This document shows positions 5,809 through 39,801 of a DNA stretch of 39,801 nt, piece by piece. A program made the translations under genes and the position numbers. The stretch's first letter is position 1, and each line of letters opens with the position of its first letter. The notes beneath the pieces are model-generated. The model did not search any database. It worked only from the letters and a program-made list of their open reading frames with translations, and was not told where the DNA came from. Origin of the DNA: Candidatus Peregrinibacteria bacterium GW2011_GWF2_38_29 (lineage in GTDB: Bacteria > Patescibacteriota > Gracilibacteria > UBA1369 > UBA12463); the NCBI GenBank assembly GCA_000992695.1, contig LBUS01000010.1, positions 1-39,801 of the forward strand, read 5' to 3'.

Positions 5809-6339
5809 ATGATACTTTCAGACAAAACTTTGAAGAAAATGCTTGATTCCGGCGAGCTCACCGTTAAGCCAATTTCCGAACATTCGATACAGCCGGCATC
5901 AATCGATTGCCGACTTGGAACGCATTATTTGATTGTTGATGATACCGGCATGGATTCGCTGACGCTTGATTCCGAAATCAAATATCGCGAGATTGAAGGC
6001 GAAACAATTACAATTCCGCCAAAAAGTTTTTTGCTTGCGACAACAATGGAATACGTAAAGCTTCCAAACGATTTGACGGCCTTCGTTGAAGGGAGAAGCT
6101 CGATTGGAAGAATGGGACTTTTTATTCAAAATGCAGGGTGGGTTGATCCGGGATTTGAAGGAAAAATCACTCTTGAAATTTATAATGCGAATTCTTTACC
6201 GATAAAACTTCAGGCGGGAAGGCGCATCTGCCAGCTCGTTTTTTGCAAAATGGATCAGGCTGCGGAAAAGCCGTATAACGGGAAATATCAGGGACAAAAT
6301 AAATCCGTAGGAAGTCGGATTTATAATGACAAAATCTAA
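5809..6339 (+). CDS. dcd: dCTP deaminase, possibly bifunctional DCD-DUT type
   Basis: The 176-residue product, read from the ATG at 5809 (MILSDKTLKKML), has the dCTP deaminase signatures EGRSSIGRMGL, AGWVDPGFEGKITLEIYN with the catalytic Glu after ITL, and the C-terminal KYQGQNKSVGSR segment. It makes dUTP, or dUMP in bifunctional members, from dCTP to feed thymidylate synthesis. The GW-DPGFEGKITLE and YQGQ stretches are closer to my memory of the bifunctional deaminase/diphosphatase group than to the E. coli enzyme. Whether it also hydrolyses dUTP is inference. An upstream ATG at 5794 would add only five residues. Confidence 0.9.
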   Translation: MILSDKTLKKMLDSGELTVKPISEHSIQPASIDCRLGTHYLIVDDTGMDSLTLDSEIKYREIEGETITIPPKSFLLATTMEYVKLPNDLTAFVEGRSSIGRMGLFIQNAGWVDPGFEGKITLEIYNANSLPIKLQAGRRICQLVFCKMDQAAEKPYNGKYQGQNKSVGSRIYNDKI

Positions 6340-6411
6340 AATCCAAAGGACAAATAAAATCCAAAGGACAAATGAAATCCAAAGGACAAATGAAATCCAA
6401 AATCCAAATTG
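6340..6411. repeat. 18-bp tandem repeat, about 3.5 copies
   Basis: Three near-identical 18-base units (aatccaaaggacaaatga, with the first ending taa) run from 6340 to 6393, followed by a decayed fourth unit to about 6411. The array starts right after the dcd stop and runs into the inverted repeat that borders the S23 gene. Units lie head to tail without unique spacers, so this is a simple array, not CRISPR. Confidence 0.9.
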
Positions 6412-9503: not shown

Positions 9504-9585
9504 AGGGGGACGGAGGCAGTGACAAATTTTGAGCTCAAAATTTTCCAGACATTTGAGCTCAAGTTGCAAAATTGCCTCCGTCCCC
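9504..9585. repeat. REP-like inverted repeat element
   Basis: The outer arms ggggacggaggca (9506-9518) and tgcctccgtcccc (9573-9585) are exact 13-bp reverse complements. Between them are a 20-bp perfect palindrome centred on gagctc (9524-9543) and a second ttgagctcaa (9553-9562). The GC-rich arm recurs at 14637-14653 (17 bp shared), and its core at 36494-36504. This resembles REP/RAYT-type intergenic palindromes. It sits between the divergent rpsO and Cys-rich-protein genes, with no transposase nearby. Confidence 0.8.
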
Positions 9586-12614: not shown

Positions 12615-12662
12615 ATAAAATAACAAAACGATGGATTTTGTCAAATTTCCGTACTAGTACGG
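12615..12662 (-). promoter_or_regulatory. Promoter with adjacent 14-bp palindrome
   Basis: On the minus strand, -35 TTGACA (12639-12644) and a weak -10 (TTTTAT at 12615-12620, 18-bp spacer) precede the small gene that starts at 12610. The perfect palindrome CCGTACTAGTACGG occupies 12649-12662, only four bases upstream of the -35 box, a position typical of an activator or repressor site. No regulator can be assigned. Confidence 0.5.
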
Positions 12663-12693: not shown

Positions 12694-12723
12694 CATAGAA
12701 TTCCTTCCTAGGAAGGAATTCCG
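12694..12723. repeat. 30-bp repeat with 24-bp perfect palindrome, copy 1
   Basis: The 24-bp core at 12698-12721 is perfectly palindromic, with half site GAATTCCTTCCT. Including flanks, 30 bp are identical in inverted orientation to 18571-18600, which lies inside the HNH gene. There is no T tract, so it is not an intrinsic terminator. This copy is intergenic, downstream of the DUF3307 gene. Confidence 0.92.
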
Positions 12724-12801
12724 GTTCAACTATTTTGGCTTTTGTATGCTATTTTTTACTCCCCTTCACGTAAGACGACTATATATTATAGCAATTCACG
12801 C

Positions 12802-13383
12802 TTAGGCCAGCCTATTAACGATGAATCCCACAACCACAAATATCGCATAAACAATTGCGAGCGCAAGAATGCGGAGAATCATGTTTCCGTAATGAAATTT
12901 TGCTTTTCCAAAAGCCTGATGTTGCATCAAAACCGTGTAGTTATAAATCTCCATTGTGTAGCTCAAAAACACGCCGAGAATCAAAAAAATCACAAAATAC
13001 GGATCGCTATATATTGAAGGTATAAAATTGCATATTATTTCGCCGCTTGTTAATGAGGAAATCGCAAGACCAGCCAAAATAATTATTACAAAATGCACAA
13101 GCTGATCCAAAATAAAATATCTCACAAATTTATCGCTATCGCTCTTGAGCGAAATATCAATCTTTGTGCGGTCAATAAAGCCGTGCACAACTCCAAGCAG
13201 AATCACAACGCCGACTGTCGCAAAATTTAAATAAGGCAAAATCAAAAGCAAAGTAATGATGACGTGTATTCCCGCATGCGCAATCACGCCATAAACGCTT
13301 TCTGACTTCCATTTCACAAGCTTTGACGGTTGGAGCATAAAATCCGCAATCAGATGCGCTAAAATCAAATATAAAATGACCAT
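12802..13383 (-). CDS. DUF3307 family membrane protein
   Basis: The 193-residue protein matches the DUF3307 pattern: an N-terminal LILAHLIADFMLQPSKLVKWK (residues about 6-26), a helix with HAGIHVIITLLL, then LGVVHGFIDRTKI (about 83-95) and LDQLVHFVII (about 112-121). The conserved His/Asp residues sit at membrane edges, suggesting a metal or substrate site, but no function is established that I know of. It has five or six membrane segments. It is the last gene of an apparent three-gene minus-strand unit, 28 bp after the cNMP-domain gene. Confidence 0.85.
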   Translation of the reverse strand: MVILYLILAHLIADFMLQPSKLVKWKSESVYGVIAHAGIHVIITLLLILPYLNFATVGVVILLGVVHGFIDRTKIDISLKSDSDKFVRYFILDQLVHFVIIILAGLAISSLTSGEIICNFIPSIYSDPYFVIFLILGVFLSYTMEIYNYTVLMQHQAFGKAKFHYGNMILRILALAIVYAIFVVVGFIVNRLA

Positions 13384-13411
13384 AAAAAAATTAATAAATT
13401 TTAAAGTTGGT

Positions 13412-13852
13412 TTAAATGCGCTCGTTTTTCTTCATGCGATCAATAACATCAGTGCTGACTTTTGCCGCAAGAGCTGAATTTTCGCTTAATAGAGCGTCAA
13501 AATCAGACTTCTTTAATACAAAAATTTCACATTCTTCAATGGTTCGAGCTGTTGCATTTCTTGGACGATCAGAAACAAGAGCCATTTCTCCAAAAACGTC
13601 TCCGGCGCTCAATACAGCCATATTCGTCGTGTGCACCGCAAGCTCTTCAGAGCCTTTAAAAATCTCGACATTACCTTTTTTAATAATGTACATCGCATCG
13701 CCCGGATCGCCTTCCTTTATAACAGTGTAATTTACCGGGAAAAACTGCAAAACCGCGACTGAAAGAATTTTCTGAATTTCCTCATCCGACATTGCTGCAA
13801 AAAGAGGAAGCGCCTTCAAATTCGCAAAAGCTCCTTGTGTTTCGTCTGACAT
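13412..13852 (-). CDS. Stand-alone cyclic-nucleotide-binding domain protein
   Basis: A CRP-like beta-roll domain makes up almost all 146 residues. The phosphate-binding cassette is FGEMALVSDRPRNATA (about residues 88-103), with the expected Glu for the ribose and Arg for the cyclic phosphate. VIKEGDPGDAMYIIKKG (about 44-60) is the typical entry strand pair. There is no helix-turn-helix, kinase or channel, so it must act through a partner. It sits 27-28 bp from genes on both sides (HExxH membrane protein upstream, DUF3307 downstream), suggesting one transcript and perhaps control of a membrane partner. Confidence 0.9.
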   Translation of the reverse strand: MSDETQGAFANLKALPLFAAMSDEEIQKILSVAVLQFFPVNYTVIKEGDPGDAMYIIKKGNVEIFKGSEELAVHTTNMAVLSAGDVFGEMALVSDRPRNATARTIEECEIFVLKKSDFDALLSENSALAAKVSTDVIDRMKKNERI

Positions 13853-13879
13853 AAAAATGTGGGTTATAGCTTTATTATA

Positions 13880-14581
13880 TCAAGAGTCAACGCCGTTTTC
13901 TACTTCCCCACGTCGTCTCAAACTTTTTACTGTTTTTTTAATCAAAGAGGCGAGCCTTTCTATTGGCTTTGCGGCAACGATAGTTAAAGCTGTTAAAGCC
14001 GTTGTAACGGCAATTGTCATAATCTCCCTTGAATAAGGACTAGGCGCGCCATAAACCCCGAGCGACTGAAATTCAGGAAAATGTTTATATATAAATCCTA
14101 AAAATATTTGAGACGCACATGATAAATCTCCGTATCTATAAAGCGCCAACTCCGCTATTCCATTGGCTAATGGCGTACATACCATTGCAGTCGACATCTT
14201 CGAAGCCATTTCGATTCTTTCATCGTAACTGTATTTAACCTTTCCGCTTCGCGCATCCAAAGTCTCTTTCATAACTTTCTTTAAAACTACATATGATATG
14301 GCTCCAAGAACTATATGTGGAGATAAATATACTATTGCACTTTCCAACGATGAAAACTGCGACATATCGGCATTAACTCGAGCTATAACCATGCCGCCGT
14401 CAAAAATGGAATACTCTATGCCATTAACTTCTCCGCCAAGAATTTTCATTGTTGCGGCATGAATCACCTCATGCGCGGGCGCAACTCCAGCAATCACACT
14501 TGCTCCAACTATTGCCCCTTTGTGTTTTTCAACAAACGAAGGTTCATCGTTTTCTACTTTGTCTAATTCTCTTTTTACCAT
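13880..14581 (-). CDS. Putative membrane HExxH metalloprotease-like protein
   Basis: Unrecognised 233-residue protein with HEVIH at residues 37-41, at the edge of a hydrophobic segment (about 22-36), as in membrane-embedded zinc peptidases such as site-2 proteases. Further hydrophobic segments lie at about 75-100 and 185-205. The third metal ligand is not obvious, and I do not see the M50 NPDG-type motif, so catalytic activity is inference. I choose the ATG at 14581 because a near-consensus promoter (14603-14631) lies inside the longer possible frame. It heads the unit with the cNMP-domain and DUF3307 genes. Confidence 0.65.
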   Translation of the reverse strand: MVKRELDKVENDEPSFVEKHKGAIVGASVIAGVAPAHEVIHAATMKILGGEVNGIEYSIFDGGMVIARVNADMSQFSSLESAIVYLSPHIVLGAISYVVLKKVMKETLDARSGKVKYSYDERIEMASKMSTAMVCTPLANGIAELALYRYGDLSCASQIFLGFIYKHFPEFQSLGVYGAPSPYSREIMTIAVTTALTALTIVAAKPIERLASLIKKTVKSLRRRGEVENGVDS

Positions 14582-14602
14582 AGCGTTATGATAAAGGAAA
14601 TC

Positions 14603-14631
14603 ATTGTATAATAATTTTATATACTTGTCAA
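14603..14631 (-). promoter_or_regulatory. Near-consensus sigma-70 promoter for the HExxH/cNMP/DUF3307 unit
   Basis: The minus strand shows TTGACA (14626-14631), 17 bp, then TACAAT (14603-14608), followed by a start codon at 14581. It is one of two strong back-to-back promoters flanking a REP-like arm at 14637-14653. Confidence 0.8.
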
Positions 14632-14636
14632 CACCT

Positions 14637-14653
14637 ACTGCCTCCGTCCCCCT
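14637..14653. repeat. REP-like half element between divergent promoters
   Basis: actgcctccgtccccct is identical (17 bp, opposite orientation) to 9504-9520 of the REP-like element and shares 13 bp with that element's other arm. Here only one arm is present, placed exactly between two divergent promoters, so it is a degraded copy or a protein-binding site. Confidence 0.75.
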
Positions 14654-14658
14654 AATAC

Positions 14659-14687
14659 TTGACATTTTCTCTTTTCTGTTATATAAT
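14659..14687 (+). promoter_or_regulatory. Perfect-consensus sigma-70 promoter for the PAS protein gene
   Basis: TTGACA (14659-14664), exactly 17 bp, TATAAT (14682-14687): the full consensus, about 30 bp upstream of the ATG at 14718. The transcript leader would be very short and has no Shine-Dalgarno motif. Confidence 0.88.
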
Positions 14688-14717
14688 TTAATAAACACGA
14701 TAAAAACAAATATAAAT

Positions 14718-15299
14718 ATGCTACCTTTAAACCAAAGCAGAAAGATCGCACTTATAGCCGTAGGGTTATTCGTCGTATCGATCTCAATTTTGTTTACTGT
14801 TACGCAAAAAAGCTCGTTTATGTCCGACGATTTGAAGGCTCAAATTTTCGGAAATACAGTAGCTCACGAACAGTCTCCGGAAAGCTCTTCTGATCCGGTT
14901 GTAGTTATCCAAGCTGACAATAAAGTTGCATATGCAAGCCCAAGCTTTAAAACAGCCCTTGGCTACAGTGATGAAGATTTAAAAGACGCTGATTTTTTCG
15001 GACTCGTTCACTCAGGTGATGCAGGCGAAGTTGCAAAATTTATTACAAAAATCGTACAAGATCATAATGAAATGAAAAATCTTGGCCCATATAGAATTAA
15101 AGGAAGCGACGGTCAATATAAGGTTTATATGGCAAATGCGACCGTAAAAATGAGTGCAGGCAAGGTTACGCAAATCGTTATTACAATGAAAGATATTACA
15201 AAATCCGTCGAACAGATAAACAACGACGAGCAGACCGGCAAACCGATTCGCACGATGAAAAATGATCCGGATAAGAAAGTTATGGCAAGTAAGGTGTAA
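14718..15299 (+). CDS. Membrane-anchored PAS domain protein without output domain
   Basis: The protein of 193 residues begins MLPLNQSRKIALIAVG, with one hydrophobic segment at about 10-28 that anchors it. A PAS domain follows at about 60-165: PVVVIQADNKVAYASPSF, LGYSDEDLKDADFFGLVH, then the PAC-like strand end IVITMKDITKSVEQ. The C-terminus (about 170-193) is charged. No kinase, cyclase or HTH domain follows, so it would sense or bind and pass the signal to a partner, which cannot be identified. The ATG at 14718 is chosen because the consensus promoter lies between it and earlier in-frame starts. Confidence 0.85.
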   Translation: MLPLNQSRKIALIAVGLFVVSISILFTVTQKSSFMSDDLKAQIFGNTVAHEQSPESSSDPVVVIQADNKVAYASPSFKTALGYSDEDLKDADFFGLVHSGDAGEVAKFITKIVQDHNEMKNLGPYRIKGSDGQYKVYMANATVKMSAGKVTQIVITMKDITKSVEQINNDEQTGKPIRTMKNDPDKKVMASKV

Positions 15300-15308
15300 G
15301 AAAAACGC

Positions 15309-15485
15309 TTAAGATTTGCTAAATGGCCATAGTTTACCTAGGCATCTTTTTATCGCCTCCCTTCTTTCCTCTCTTCTAACCCTTTCAAAATGATCTAAAA
15401 GGGCTTCGGCACATGGTCGAAGAAAAGCGCGCATTATTACTTCACCATCTTCGCGAGTCAAACTTCGCGGTTCTTTGTTTCCCAT
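15309..15485 (-). CDS. Small basic helical protein, 58 aa
   Basis: A short frame runs from ATG 15485 to TAA 15309. The product starts MGNKEPRSLTREDGEVIMRA, has an amphipathic helix with LRPCAEALLDHFERVRREER, and ends CLGKLWPFSKS. It is strongly charged, Arg/Glu-rich and has two Cys. It fills the only gap between the PAS gene (stop 15299, convergent) and leuS, and codon choice looks like its neighbours. I do not recognise a family. Its small size leaves some doubt. Confidence 0.55.
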   Translation of the reverse strand: MGNKEPRSLTREDGEVIMRAFLRPCAEALLDHFERVRREERREAIKRCLGKLWPFSKS

Positions 15486-15579
15486 TGTTTAGCTCTTTTA
15501 CGGATTATCAATATAAATAAAAAGGTGTAAAAAATCAAGTTTAATTGCCAAACAATAGCTTTTGACTTAAAATTTGCCC

Positions 15580-18030
15580 ATGGATGAAATTCGCCCAACA
15601 GATATAGATCAAAAATGGCAAAAAAAATGGAGAGAAACGAATCTTCATAATGCTGATTTTTTGGGAACGGATAAGCCGAAGTATTATAATTTGGTGATGT
15701 TTCCTTATCCTTCTGCGGCAAAACTGCATATCGGGCATTGGTATAACTATGGCGGTTCGGATTTGTGGGGACGATATATGCGCATGAAAGGATTTAATGT
15801 TTTTGAACCTATGGGATTTGATTCTTTTGGCTTGCCTGCTGAAAACTATGCGGTTAAAACCGGCGTGCATCCAATGGATTCGACTTATGAAAATATAAAA
15901 ATAATGTGCGAACAATTGAGCGCTGTTGGCACAATGTATGACTGGGATAAAAAAGTTGTGACGAGCGATCCCGAATATTATAAATGGACCCAATGGATAT
16001 TTTTGAAATTTTTTGAAGCTGGCTTGGCAAATCGAAGAATGGCTCCTGTGAACTGGTGCCCAAAGTGCCAAACATGCCTTGCTAATGAGCAAGTTAAAGA
16101 AGGCAAATGCGACAGATGTAGCAGCGAAGTTGTGAAAAAAGACATGGAACAGTGGTTTTTCAATATAAAAAAATATGCGGAAAGATTGCTGAATTTTGAA
16201 GGCTTGGATTGGCCGGAAAAGACGAAGATGATGCAGAAAGATTGGATTGGAAAAAGTGAAGGTGTGAATTTTAAACATAAAATTAAAGATCTTGATATTG
16301 AATTTGAAGTTTTTGATTCGATTCCGCAAACTTTTATGGCGCAAACCTTTGTGATAATCGCGCCGGATCATCCGCTTGTTAAAAGGCTTGTGGAAGGCAC
16401 GGAACATGAAAAACCCGTTATGGATTTTGTGAAAAAAATCGAGAAAAAAAGATTAAATAAAAAATTCGATATTGATGCGGACATGGAAGGTGTTTTTACC
16501 GGAAGATATTCTGAAAATTACATGGGAACGGGAAAGGATTTGCCAATTTGGGTGGCGAGTTTTGCCCTTATGGACTATGGAACTGGAATTGTCGGCTGCT
16601 CCGCGCATGATGAAAGAGATTTTGCTTTTGCAAAAATGTATAACTTGCCTTTGCATCCTGTGCTTTTCCCTGAAGACAAAAGTCATGCTGAAAAAGTGAA
16701 AAATTTGGAAGTTTTTTATCGCGAACCGGATGGAATTTTGCACGAACCAAAAGAATTTGAAGGTATGAAATGGCATGAAGCTCGCAAACCGATTATCGAT
16801 CATATTGAAAAGAAAAAATTTGGAACAAGAACAATAAATTATAAATTGCATGACTGGCTTCTCTCTCGTCAACGTTATTGGGGAGCGCCGATTCCGGTTG
16901 TTTATTGCGAAAAATGTAAGGCGGACGGCTCTGCGCCGGGCGGCATTGTCGCGATTCCGGAAAAAGATTTGCCGGTTTTGCTTCCAAGAAACGTTGATTT
17001 TATTCCACGTGGAAAATCACCATTACATTACTGCGATGAATTCATGAAAACCACTTGTCCAAAATGTGGCGGACCCGCAGAACGTGAAAGCGATACAATG
17101 GATACTTTTGTTGATTCTAGTTGGTACTTTTTGCGCTATCTATCGCCAAAAAATGAGGAAAACGCGTTTGATAAAAAAATAATAAAAAAGTGGATGCCGG
17201 TTGATATGTATATTGGCGGAGCTGAGCACGCGTGCATGCATTTGATATATGCGAGATTTTTCACAATGGTTTTGCACGACCTCGGATATATTGATTTTGA
17301 TGAGCCGTTTAAAAGGCTTGTACATCAAGGGACTATCACAAAAGATTCTGCAAAAATGTCGAAATCAAAAGGAAATGTTGTGAGTCCGGATTCGTTTATT
17401 GAAAAATATGGAAGTGACGTTTTCCGCATGTATTTGATGTTTATTGGACCTTTTGTTGCCGGCGGAGATTGGAGTGATAAAGGAATAACGGGGGTCGCGA
17501 GATTTGAAAGAAAATTTAAGGATATTATTTTTGGGGACGATGAAGTGAAAAATAAAGAAGAAATGTTGCGCGTGATTCATAAAACAATAAAGCGCGTGAC
17601 CGAGAGCATGGAGGCGTTTCAATTTAATACTGCGATTGCCGCAATGATGGAATTTACGAATGAAATCGGTGCATGCGGAATTGATGCGGAAAGCAAAAAA
17701 ACAATGGTTCGCTTGATTGCGCCTTTTGCGCCTCATACTGCGGAAGAACTCTGGGAAAAATTAGATCAGAAATATAGCGTCTTCGATGTGAATGTGAGTG
17801 GCGGCTGGCCGAAATTTGATGAAAAATATTTGGTTACTTCAGTGCTTGAATTGCCAGTGCAAATTAATGGAAAACTTCGCGCAGTGATTACGGTCCCTGT
17901 CGATGATGCTAAAGAAAAAATTCTTGAATGCGCGAAAAATGAGTCAAACGTAAAAAAATACTTTGAAGGCGCACAAATTGTTAAGGAAATTTATGTGCCG
18001 GGAAAATTGGTGGGATTTGTGGTGAAATAA
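15580..18030 (+). CDS. leuS: Leucyl-tRNA synthetase
   Basis: A complete class Ia LeuRS of 816 residues from the ATG at 15580. HIGH is exact at residues 50-53 (KLHIGHWYN) and KMSKS at 592-596 (AKMSKSKGNVV). A Cys zinc knuckle (CPKCQTCLANEQ, CDRC, about 160-185) follows the first half of the fold. The CP1 editing domain is present, with DYGTGIVGCSAHDERDF (about 330-347) holding the conserved Asp. A second zinc module (CEKC..CPKCGG) and the C-terminal anticodon-binding helical domain complete it. No Shine-Dalgarno motif precedes the start. Confidence 0.98.
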   Translation: MDEIRPTDIDQKWQKKWRETNLHNADFLGTDKPKYYNLVMFPYPSAAKLHIGHWYNYGGSDLWGRYMRMKGFNVFEPMGFDSFGLPAENYAVKTGVHPMDSTYENIKIMCEQLSAVGTMYDWDKKVVTSDPEYYKWTQWIFLKFFEAGLANRRMAPVNWCPKCQTCLANEQVKEGKCDRCSSEVVKKDMEQWFFNIKKYAERLLNFEGLDWPEKTKMMQKDWIGKSEGVNFKHKIKDLDIEFEVFDSIPQTFMAQTFVIIAPDHPLVKRLVEGTEHEKPVMDFVKKIEKKRLNKKFDIDADMEGVFTGRYSENYMGTGKDLPIWVASFALMDYGTGIVGCSAHDERDFAFAKMYNLPLHPVLFPEDKSHAEKVKNLEVFYREPDGILHEPKEFEGMKWHEARKPIIDHIEKKKFGTRTINYKLHDWLLSRQRYWGAPIPVVYCEKCKADGSAPGGIVAIPEKDLPVLLPRNVDFIPRGKSPLHYCDEFMKTTCPKCGGPAERESDTMDTFVDSSWYFLRYLSPKNEENAFDKKIIKKWMPVDMYIGGAEHACMHLIYARFFTMVLHDLGYIDFDEPFKRLVHQGTITKDSAKMSKSKGNVVSPDSFIEKYGSDVFRMYLMFIGPFVAGGDWSDKGITGVARFERKFKDIIFGDDEVKNKEEMLRVIHKTIKRVTESMEAFQFNTAIAAMMEFTNEIGACGIDAESKKTMVRLIAPFAPHTAEELWEKLDQKYSVFDVNVSGGWPKFDEKYLVTSVLELPVQINGKLRAVITVPVDDAKEKILECAKNESNVKKYFEGAQIVKEIYVPGKLVGFVVK

Positions 18031-18164
18031 GATTCTTGTGCGATGATTTATCTGAAAGGTTAATGCGTACTTGCCTTGGTTTTTCGCAACAGTTTTTTTC
18101 TTTCTGATCTGGCTTTTTTGGCTTATTTAAGCTAAAATATCAGCAACAACATAATCTAAAAAAT

Positions 18165-19106
18165 ATGACAAATGTAGCGCAAAATCTTCATGAAAAATTC
18201 GTCTTTTATGGCAAAAACGCAAAAGAATGGATGCGAAAATGCGTATTACTTTTGCCGGAAATAAATAGACTGCGGATTTGGGAGAAAAAAGGATTCGGAA
18301 GCATTCACGAATACGCGGCAAAACTTGCAGGAATGAGCAGAAATTCGGTCGATGAGGCGCTTCGAATACTAAGAAAAGTGGAAGACAAGCCGGAATTGAG
18401 ATGGGTTATTGATAAAAAAGGAATAAATGCAATCAAACCAATCGTCACAATTGCAACTCAAGAAACAGCGGATTTTTGGGCAGAAAAAGCCATGGAAATG
18501 AGCAAAAACACATTGGAGGTTTACGTGAAGGAGTTCAAAAAAGCGCATGTGGAAGAGAAAAATAACAAATCGGAATTCCTTCCTAGGAAGGAATTCTATG
18601 CTGTGCCGCAAGTACAAAATATATCAATGGAGCTCGATCCGGAAATCGCAAAACAACTTGAAAAACTCAAAGGCCAAGGAAATTGGAACGAACTAATGCA
18701 AAAACTTTTGGAGGCCTATAAATCACAAAATGAAGCCAAAAAGCCCATTCCTCAAGAAAATGCAAAAAGATATACGTCTGCAAAAATCAAAAAATATGTG
18801 CTTACTAAAACAAACAACACGTGTGCGTTTCCCAACTGTACGAAAAAGTACAAATACCTGCATCACGCTGATAGATTCGCGCTCACACACGAGCATAATC
18901 CGGATACGCTCATTCCTCTTTGCAAAGCGCATGAAAGATTGGCGCATGCAGGCCTGATTGAAAATGAAAACATGGCACCGGAAAACTGGCGAATAAAAAC
19001 AACTGCGGATAAAGCCAGTGAAAAATGGCAAAAAGTAGATAAGTGGGTTGTAAAATATTATTCAGGTAACTTTGTGGGCACGGAAGAAGTCGTAGAAATA
19101 ACATAA
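18165..19106 (+). CDS. HNH endonuclease-domain protein with palindrome-encoded linker
   Basis: The protein has 313 residues. The N-terminal ~125 residues are helical (FGSIHEYAAKLAGMSRNSV looks like a helix-turn-helix). Residues about 137-145 (EFLPRKEF) are encoded by the 24-bp palindrome at 18573-18596. ISMELDPEIAKQLEKLK resembles a ribbon-helix-helix-type segment. The C-terminal HNH nuclease module has CAFPNC (about 220), LHHADRF (about 233), HNPDTLIPLC and KAHERLAHAG, giving the metal-binding and catalytic His/Asn set. HNH proteins of this build occur on mobile elements and as restriction-type nucleases; the target is unknown. Confidence 0.85.
   Translation: MTNVAQNLHEKFVFYGKNAKEWMRKCVLLLPEINRLRIWEKKGFGSIHEYAAKLAGMSRNSVDEALRILRKVEDKPELRWVIDKKGINAIKPIVTIATQETADFWAEKAMEMSKNTLEVYVKEFKKAHVEEKNNKSEFLPRKEFYAVPQVQNISMELDPEIAKQLEKLKGQGNWNELMQKLLEAYKSQNEAKKPIPQENAKRYTSAKIKKYVLTKTNNTCAFPNCTKKYKYLHHADRFALTHEHNPDTLIPLCKAHERLAHAGLIENENMAPENWRIKTTADKASEKWQKVDKWVVKYYSGNFVGTEEVVEIT
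18571..18600. repeat. 30-bp repeat with 24-bp perfect palindrome, copy 2 (inside a gene)
   Basis: Identical in inverted orientation to 12694-12723. The copy keeps the reading frame of the HNH gene and adds a short charged-aromatic linker, with no stop in the frame used. Confidence 0.92.
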
Positions 19107-39704: not shown

Positions 39705-39801
39705 TTGATAAGATTGCAGCAATTGCGATCACATTTTTAGGTTGCATGGGCTAGAATGGATTCCATTCTTTAGCCAAACAAAATATGTATCCAAGTTATG
39801 A
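39705..39801. repeat. Right arm of 97-bp terminal inverted repeat
   Basis: Exact reverse complement of bases 3-99. It begins inside the upstream open frame of the sigma-like gene and reaches the last base of the window, so its true outer limit is unknown. Confidence 0.95.

Follow-up and report, generated by a model that had tools for sequence, protein, structure and literature searches.

Why should the gene for a predicted nuclease carry, in the middle of its reading frame, a long perfect palindrome of which an identical copy lies between genes on the same contig? The question is raised by a 39,801-nucleotide stretch of the genome of Candidatus Peregrinibacteria bacterium GW2011_GWF2_38_29 (the window), whose host group comprises ultra-small bacteria in which few genetic systems are understood. 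If the palindrome is the site that the encoded protein itself recognises, the puzzle becomes how a nuclease can tolerate its own target within its own gene.

The palindrome pair

The two copies of GAATTCCTTCCTAGGAAGGAATTC, a perfect 24-bp palindrome (Table 1), lie in inverted orientation within a 30-bp unit that is identical at positions 12694–12723 and 18571–18600 and that takes in the flanks of the palindrome (CG...TATG). The initial annotation of this DNA described the repeated unit and noted that the second copy is found in an HNH gene, where it encodes the peptide EFLPRKEF without breaking the frame. Both descriptions hold, the frame in question being the 313 amino acid ORF at 18165–19106, and the repeat is far beyond chance: no match to GAATTCCTTCCTAGGAAGGAATTC is seen in dinucleotide shuffles of the window and three palindromes as long as GAATTCCTTCCTAGGAAGGAATTC are seen in 440 kb of the genome, against approximately 0.3 expected from Markov controls. 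The annotation also held that a dispersed element should be doubted if only two copies were present genome-wide. This test has been overtaken, as exactly three copies of the sequence are present: the two in the window and one, with two symmetric changes, inside an 84–85% identical HNH paralogue on contig C4. When 287 genomes of the phylum were scanned for the 22-bp core of GAATTCCTTCCTAGGAAGGAATTC, the only matches were those in its own genome and a single match with two mismatches. No target-site duplications, a check proposed in the initial annotation, and no clean empty sites were found. The palindrome pair is a real observation, but it is not a stray repeat.

Table 1 Features of the window discussed in the text
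Feature	Position	Strand	Details and basis
Second intergenic palindrome CCGTACTAGTACGG	12649..12662	.	Cognate to two further HNH paralogues (contigs C13 and C3)
Intergenic cognate palindrome, identical to the HNH-gene copy	12698..12721	.	Sequence match
Degenerate copy of TGGCTTATTTAAGCCA, as TAGCATACAAAAGCCA	12736..12751	-	BLAST of dispersed elements against each other
Palindrome-like TTGGCTTATTTAAGCTAA upstream of HNH gene	18118..18135	+	Conserved in paralogue leaders; related to TGGCTTATTTAAGCCA
HNH-family gene, 313 aa	18165..19106	+	ORF; 8 paralogues in own genome; PHROG HNH matches in most homologues
N-terminal helical DNA-binding domain (predicted), residues 1-133	18165..18563	+	Foldseek Noc match; weak Pfam HTH_ParB matches
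Start of last helix of DNA-binding domain, M112-S-K114-N115-T-L-E	18498..18518	+	x1 = K114, x2 = N115; helix 114-133
In-frame palindrome GAATTCCTTCCTAGGAAGGAATTC	18573..18596	+	Linker residues 137-144; presumed own binding site
HNH nuclease domain, residues about 201-300	18765..19064	+	Invariant residues; PHROG HNH matches

The HNH protein and its relatives

The protein encoded around the second copy is predicted to comprise an N-terminal DNA-binding domain, a disordered linker, a small helical pair and a zinc-binding HNH nuclease domain. In an AF2 model of the window protein (mean pLDDT 85.8), the helical N-terminal domain is well predicted and the residues encoded by the palindrome fall within a disordered stretch (residues 134–147), followed in turn by the helix pair and nuclease domain. 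Of 20 homologues, most have matches to PHROG HNH families (best 2.7e-8), and the zinc and catalytic residues conserved in the HNH fold are found here also: C220, C225, H233, H234, H244 and C253 are present in 105/105 aligned genes and H256 and H261 in nearly all. The middle Asn of the classical HNH fold is not conserved in the family. Foldseek pairs the nuclease end of the model with the HNH domains of IscB, McrA and Cas9.

A resemblance to the Noc/ParB DNA-binding domain, with two helix-turn-helix-like units, is predicted for the N-terminal domain. Foldseek aligns it over 117 columns with the Noc DNA-binding domain of 6y93_B, a structure in which that domain is bound to its palindrome, with a TM score (target) of 0.61 and an E value of 1.9 that is not significant. 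Matches to Pfam HTH_ParB (PF17762) have E values of 0.015–0.1, the best of them (15.8 bits) lying below the cut-off of 22.6. A ParB_N (CTPase) domain was looked for in the HNH protein with no match, the protein beginning with its reading domain. The sole PF02195 (ParB_N) match in the genome is located in a 504 amino acid frame (L238, G000:C2:11531-11791).

Members of the HNH family are present in 46 of the 288 genomes of the class, often in at least eight copies each. Relatives are found almost only in Peregrinibacteria/Peribacteria and close Patescibacteria, and none was found in the viral contigs searched. The window gene stands between leuS and an rsmI-like gene; at the same locus, a congener has leuS, a 94 amino acid ORF and rsmI, the HNH gene being absent, and HNH genes therefore come and go. 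Where the reading domains are equally similar, the nuclease halves are more alike within genomes than between them (0.81 versus 0.52 for reading-domain similarity of 0.6–0.7 and 0.85 versus 0.62 for 0.7–0.8). Such homogenised nuclease halves and diversified readers are as expected if the nuclease part is subject to gene conversion, although genes that were duplicated recently, with readers that then changed fast, could also give this pattern. A further palindrome, GGTGAGTATATACTCACC, is common to the leaders of several HNH genes in different genomes and is perhaps the operator of a common regulator; a leader palindrome of this type is perfect, as GGTGAGCATATGCTCACC, at L047:5603-5620.

Palindromes in the linker of the family

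Alignments reveal that most HNH paralogues and homologues have a palindrome at the same linker but that its sequence differs from gene to gene, examples being TTCCGTACTAGTACGGAA, TTGCCCCGGGGCAA, CGGGCTTCCCGGGAAGCCCG, ATTCCTCCGCGCGGAGGAAT, TTTCGAGAGGGCGCCCTCTCGAAA and AAAGTCTGCCCGGGCAGACTTT and the longest being the 32-bp GTCTATTTTCCGTACCGGTACGGAAAATAGAC. The initial annotation had proposed that homologues without EFLPRKEF would show whether an element had been inserted. Such homologues do exist, but mostly have a different palindrome at this place rather than no element at all. Across 106 distinct genes, a linker palindrome of at least 12 bp is found in 62.3%, compared with 3.4% once codons have been resampled synonymously and 2.4% in windows of equal size from other parts of these genes. 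For palindromes of at least 16 bp, the corresponding values are 35.8, 0.3 and 0.2%. The centre of the palindrome falls between codons (phase 0) in 64 of 66 genes. About a quarter of genes have no linker palindrome of at least 10 bp, many of these displaying a near-palindrome instead.

Where the palindromes of related genes differ, they do so mostly by symmetric, paired changes: the L125 and L132 palindromes have five positions the same, three paired differences and none that is one-sided, and those of L022 and L024 have six, three and none, respectively. Stems of at least 7 bp are loop-free in 55 genes, with loops of at least 3 in only four. That changes are mostly two-sided and looped stems nearly absent indicates a constraint on the DNA in its double-stranded form. 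The linker palindromes are selected at the DNA level, in place and beyond the needs of the peptide that they encode.

A relationship between protein residues and base pairs

In one subfamily (subfamily 1), with overall similarity partialled out, half-site similarity tracks two protein windows, 53–72 (r 0.27, p 0.0005) and 109–124 (r 0.32, p 0.0007), and does not track the helix pair or the HNH domain. The 53–72 signal is absent when flanking linker DNA is used as a control target and is not seen in subfamily 2.

A residue-to-base relationship is seen in the motif M-S-x1-x2-T-L-E, located where the last helix of the reading domain starts. The putative target of the window protein, CCTTCCTAGGAAGG, has the centre CT|AG. 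The identity of x1 follows the second base from the palindrome centre without exception in 37/37 subfamily 1 genes: lysine or arginine is found with C (26/26), glutamine with G (5/5), alanine, isoleucine, asparagine or valine with A (5/5) and serine with T (1/1). At x2, asparagine is found with T in 11 of 12 cases and other residues with C in 25 of 25. The x1 relation is similar in the 27 genes of subfamily 2, with few exceptions (z 7.0). Among 28 disjoint sister pairs, change of the base goes with change of x1 class in 10/11 pairs versus 0/17, with agreement in 27/28 (p 8e-7), and the x2 relation has a p value of 5e-4; these p values control for relatedness only in part and are not those of a full phylogenetic model. 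The code was defined without the genes whose palindromes are short or damaged, and most of these agree with it. The clear x1 failures among 18 short palindromes are L126, L019 and L193, and of the near-palindromes, L033 fails, whereas in L121, L135 and L143, for example, one side or both show the centre that the code predicts.

The two residues that open the last helix thereby predict the two central base pairs of the palindrome, and the HNH protein and its target appear to have changed together many times. In ParB and Noc, the same base step is read by Arg201 when it has C and by glycine or small residues when it has A (PMC7383237). Here, x1 and x2 seem to be located on the last helix and not at the ParB position that reads the same base. 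Judged by sequence spacing, x1 lies on a helix that follows the one bearing residue 201, and the likeness is therefore one of logic and not of a proven equivalent residue.

Dispersed sites

Sites outside the HNH genes were sought in 440 kb of the genome, together with genome-wide pattern searches. The 12-bp cores known from the family occur at 11 sites in the 440 kb against approximately 1.1 expected. Three of these are in HNH genes and the other eight (8/8) are outside ORFs of at least 90 codons. A given palindrome has between 0 and 9 copies per genome. In describing the repeat as dispersed, the initial annotation was correct, as several intergenic places per genome hold cognate palindromes, but its suggestion that the element inserts into tolerant protein linkers is not supported as a general rule: coding copies in the 440 kb belong to a single HNH family, at one homologous position and in a fixed phase, and their sequence co-varies with the DNA-reading helix of the protein.

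The second intergenic palindrome of the window, CCGTACTAGTACGG, lies 36 bp from the intergenic copy of GAATTCCTTCCTAGGAAGGAATTC. It is found in 4 of the 69 genomes of the order, each of which has an HNH gene bearing either CCGTACTAGTACGG or a one-base variant (the latter being the case in the window's own genome), with the remaining 65 lacking CCGTACTAGTACGG. One genome has nine copies, of which one is inside an HNH gene. Another palindrome, TCTGCCCGGGCAGA, is found in 16 of the 69 genomes, both within HNH genes and outside them; of these copies, at least L204 and L205 lie within long frames that are not HNH genes, where the match may be a coincidence of codons. Genome G004 has two intergenic copies whose cognate HNH gene is found only in a sister species, so site and gene need not be linked within a single genome. 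Intergenic sites of different cognate types are often grouped, as at 12649 and 12698 in the window and at L049, L064 and L082, and a conserved second palindrome, TGGCTTATTTAAGCCA, is located approximately 15–25 bp from several dispersed sites and also, in either orientation, in some linkers. In the Dive96 genome (L178/L080), dispersed repeats near CCGTACTAGTACGG also include a portion of the palindrome belonging to a different HNH paralogue (CCCCGGGGATGGTAAACC), which suggests that these elements are composite.

That the intergenic copies are remnants of HNH genes was suggested by 76–99 bp of nucleotide similarity but was rejected. Masked tblastn detected no HNH coding similarity in the 350-bp flanks of the tested intergenic sites; a single tblastn match (L047@5603) proved to come from an intact HNH gene, of which it is the leader. 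What the intergenic copies have in common with HNH genes is the short palindrome unit.

A probable target within the gene for its own reader

The DNA-level constraint and the residue-to-base code together argue that the linker palindrome is, very probably, where the protein encoded by the surrounding gene binds, a reading to which we assign a probability of roughly 0.8. The initial annotation offered a binding site as one possibility, and this is supported by the co-variation of the palindrome with the protein's own DNA-reading helix. A homodimer would bind the parS-like palindrome through its N-terminal domain of predicted ParB/Noc type, whose last helix would read, at its start, the two base pairs beside the palindrome centre. 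In most genes, the flexible linker that joins reading domain and nuclease would hold the gene's own target in frame, further cognate targets would be placed in intergenic DNA, and the HNH protein would nick or cut at or near these cognate sites. With reader and target written in the same gene, the recognition code would be readable from sequence, and so testable by single swaps, and the family would form a natural record of dozens of protein–DNA specificity switches.

Any account of the role of the system is more tentative. It may be homing-like and self-spreading, target and reader travelling as one module, a proposal to which we give slightly less than even odds; cutting at cognate sites would then drive gene conversion and the spread of sites. 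We likewise suggest, without committing ourselves to it, that this is a self-targeting family in which each nuclease gene must hold an intact target in frame and in which the module shifts its specificity by paired mutation and spreads by conversion. If true, this would be a form of selfish or recombination system that has no earlier description. With its own target intact, the nuclease should cut its own gene unless it nicks only, needs two sites or is restrained. We found no report in the literature of this in-gene target arrangement, nor of palindromes in these bacteria.

Alternative explanations

The in-gene palindrome might instead be an operator, by means of which the protein tunes or blocks its own transcription, with the intergenic sites forming a small regulon for each paralogue, diversification preventing cross-talk among paralogues and the nuclease acting elsewhere. 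This deserves serious consideration, although we doubt that it is correct. The intergenic location of the dispersed sites is in keeping with it, as are the sequences beside CCGTACTAGTACGG: the copy in the window adjoins TTGACA on the minus strand and, in its own genome, a TTGACA-like box adjoins two intergenic sites and a TGGACA variant the third. Plasmid ParB proteins, moreover, can serve as co-repressors (PMC7022226). A position in the middle of an ORF would be unusual for an operator, however, other intergenic copies have no obvious promoter, and the clusters of sites, the common short flanks and the strict conservation of the nuclease are left unexplained. A simple operator reading drawn from the TTGACA neighbours was retained only as a rival.

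It is improbable that the palindromes are passive mobile elements, similar to those of Rickettsia, that have repeatedly entered a tolerant linker in frame. Similar short bipartite units do occur in intergenic DNA and in the linkers of different HNH lineages, in both orientations, and the intergenic copies lack HNH coding similarity beyond the unit. Against this, the units are absent from every other gene family in the sample, occupy one homologous position in one phase, mutate in place by paired changes and obey a residue–base code with the encoded protein, and the idea was already disfavoured on the last of these grounds.

Less probable again is a mutational by-product, in which template switching keeps quasi-palindromes perfect in the absence of selection and the link to the protein reflects shared ancestry. 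Template switching can yield paired changes, and the palindrome and the helix are some 20–30 codons apart in one gene, but neither the fixed phase and homologous position over distant lineages nor a residue code that holds for both subfamilies and among disjoint sister pairs is predicted, and the flanking linker DNA controls lack the 53–72 signal. Least credible of all is an RNA hairpin in the mRNA with a role in regulation, stability or RNA binding. Although a perfect palindrome is able to fold in this way and its position is transcribed, the reading was rejected since stems with loops are nearly absent and Rfam gave no match except tRNAs in the window and two dispersed-element loci, and it is further opposed by the intergenic cognate copies and by the two central base pairs, the would-be loop, being those that follow the protein code.

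Comparison with known systems

As the binding site of its own gene's product, the linker palindrome would find its nearest known counterpart in ParB/parS, the differences being the nuclease, the missing CTPase, the multiplicity and the co-diversification. The likeness to ParB/Noc with parS/NBS extends to the predicted fold of the reading domain, to 14–16 bp palindromes of similar kind and to the way in which residues match the second base pair out from the centre, and some family palindromes have a parS-like core, TTCACGTGAA, as in GTCTTCACGTGAAGAC in L127. In B. subtilis, parS-359 is located within the parB gene itself (PMC4442127), which is the closest precedent found. The HNH family differs in having no CTPase domain upstream, in being fused to an HNH nuclease and in being multi-copy; its paralogues seem to have targets of their own that change with the protein, and the linker target is found family-wide rather than as one conserved site. 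Fusions of a ParB-CTPase fold with HNH were reported in 2025 (PMC12704722). In the part of that report available to us, these also join a ParB-related module to HNH but carry the CTPase fold, whereas the window family would have the helix-turn-helix part only, and an in-gene target is not mentioned there.

RAYTs are tyrosine (HUH-type) transposases with REP/REPIN palindromes beside the gene (PMC3116915) and likewise link a nuclease-type protein to its own class of dispersed, mostly extragenic palindromes. The window protein is of HNH type, however, and not a Y1/HUH tyrosine transposase, and its palindrome lies inside the ORF, with few dispersed copies, rather than beside the gene in high copy. 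No link between HNH and RAYT was found in the literature.

The palindromic elements of Rickettsia invade many unrelated genes. Like them, the units described here are both intergenic and in frame inside genes, but only one gene family is concerned, with co-variation of protein and palindrome, and non-HNH copies in the 440 kb are all intergenic, with no in-frame copies in unrelated genes. Homing endonuclease genes interrupt their own target. The HNH family resembles HNH homing endonucleases in its nuclease and in its selfish-looking, multi-copy genes that are present or absent among relatives, but its genes keep the putative target intact and no intron or intein was seen in them.

Other repeats in the window and genome

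Several further repeats were observed. At 9506–9585 in the window, the 20-bp palindrome AAATTTTGAGCTCAAAATTT stands between GGGGACGGAGGC and its inverse, GCCTCCGTCCCC, in a manner like that of a miniature inverted-repeat element. The sequence GGGGACGGAGG has exactly 13 occurrences in the 440 kb, some of them within genes. Tandem 18-bp units (AAATCCAAAGGACAAATA) occupy intergenic positions 6321–6409, and an A-rich repeat of 40–45 bp (TCAAAACTCAAAAGTCAAAGCTACAAGTTAAAAATCAAAACT) has many dispersed copies, at L064:11851-11895 and at many sites in L047–L063. Finally, positions 3–99 and 39705–39801 form a perfect 97-nucleotide inverted repeat at the two ends of the contig, probably a repeat at which the assembly broke.
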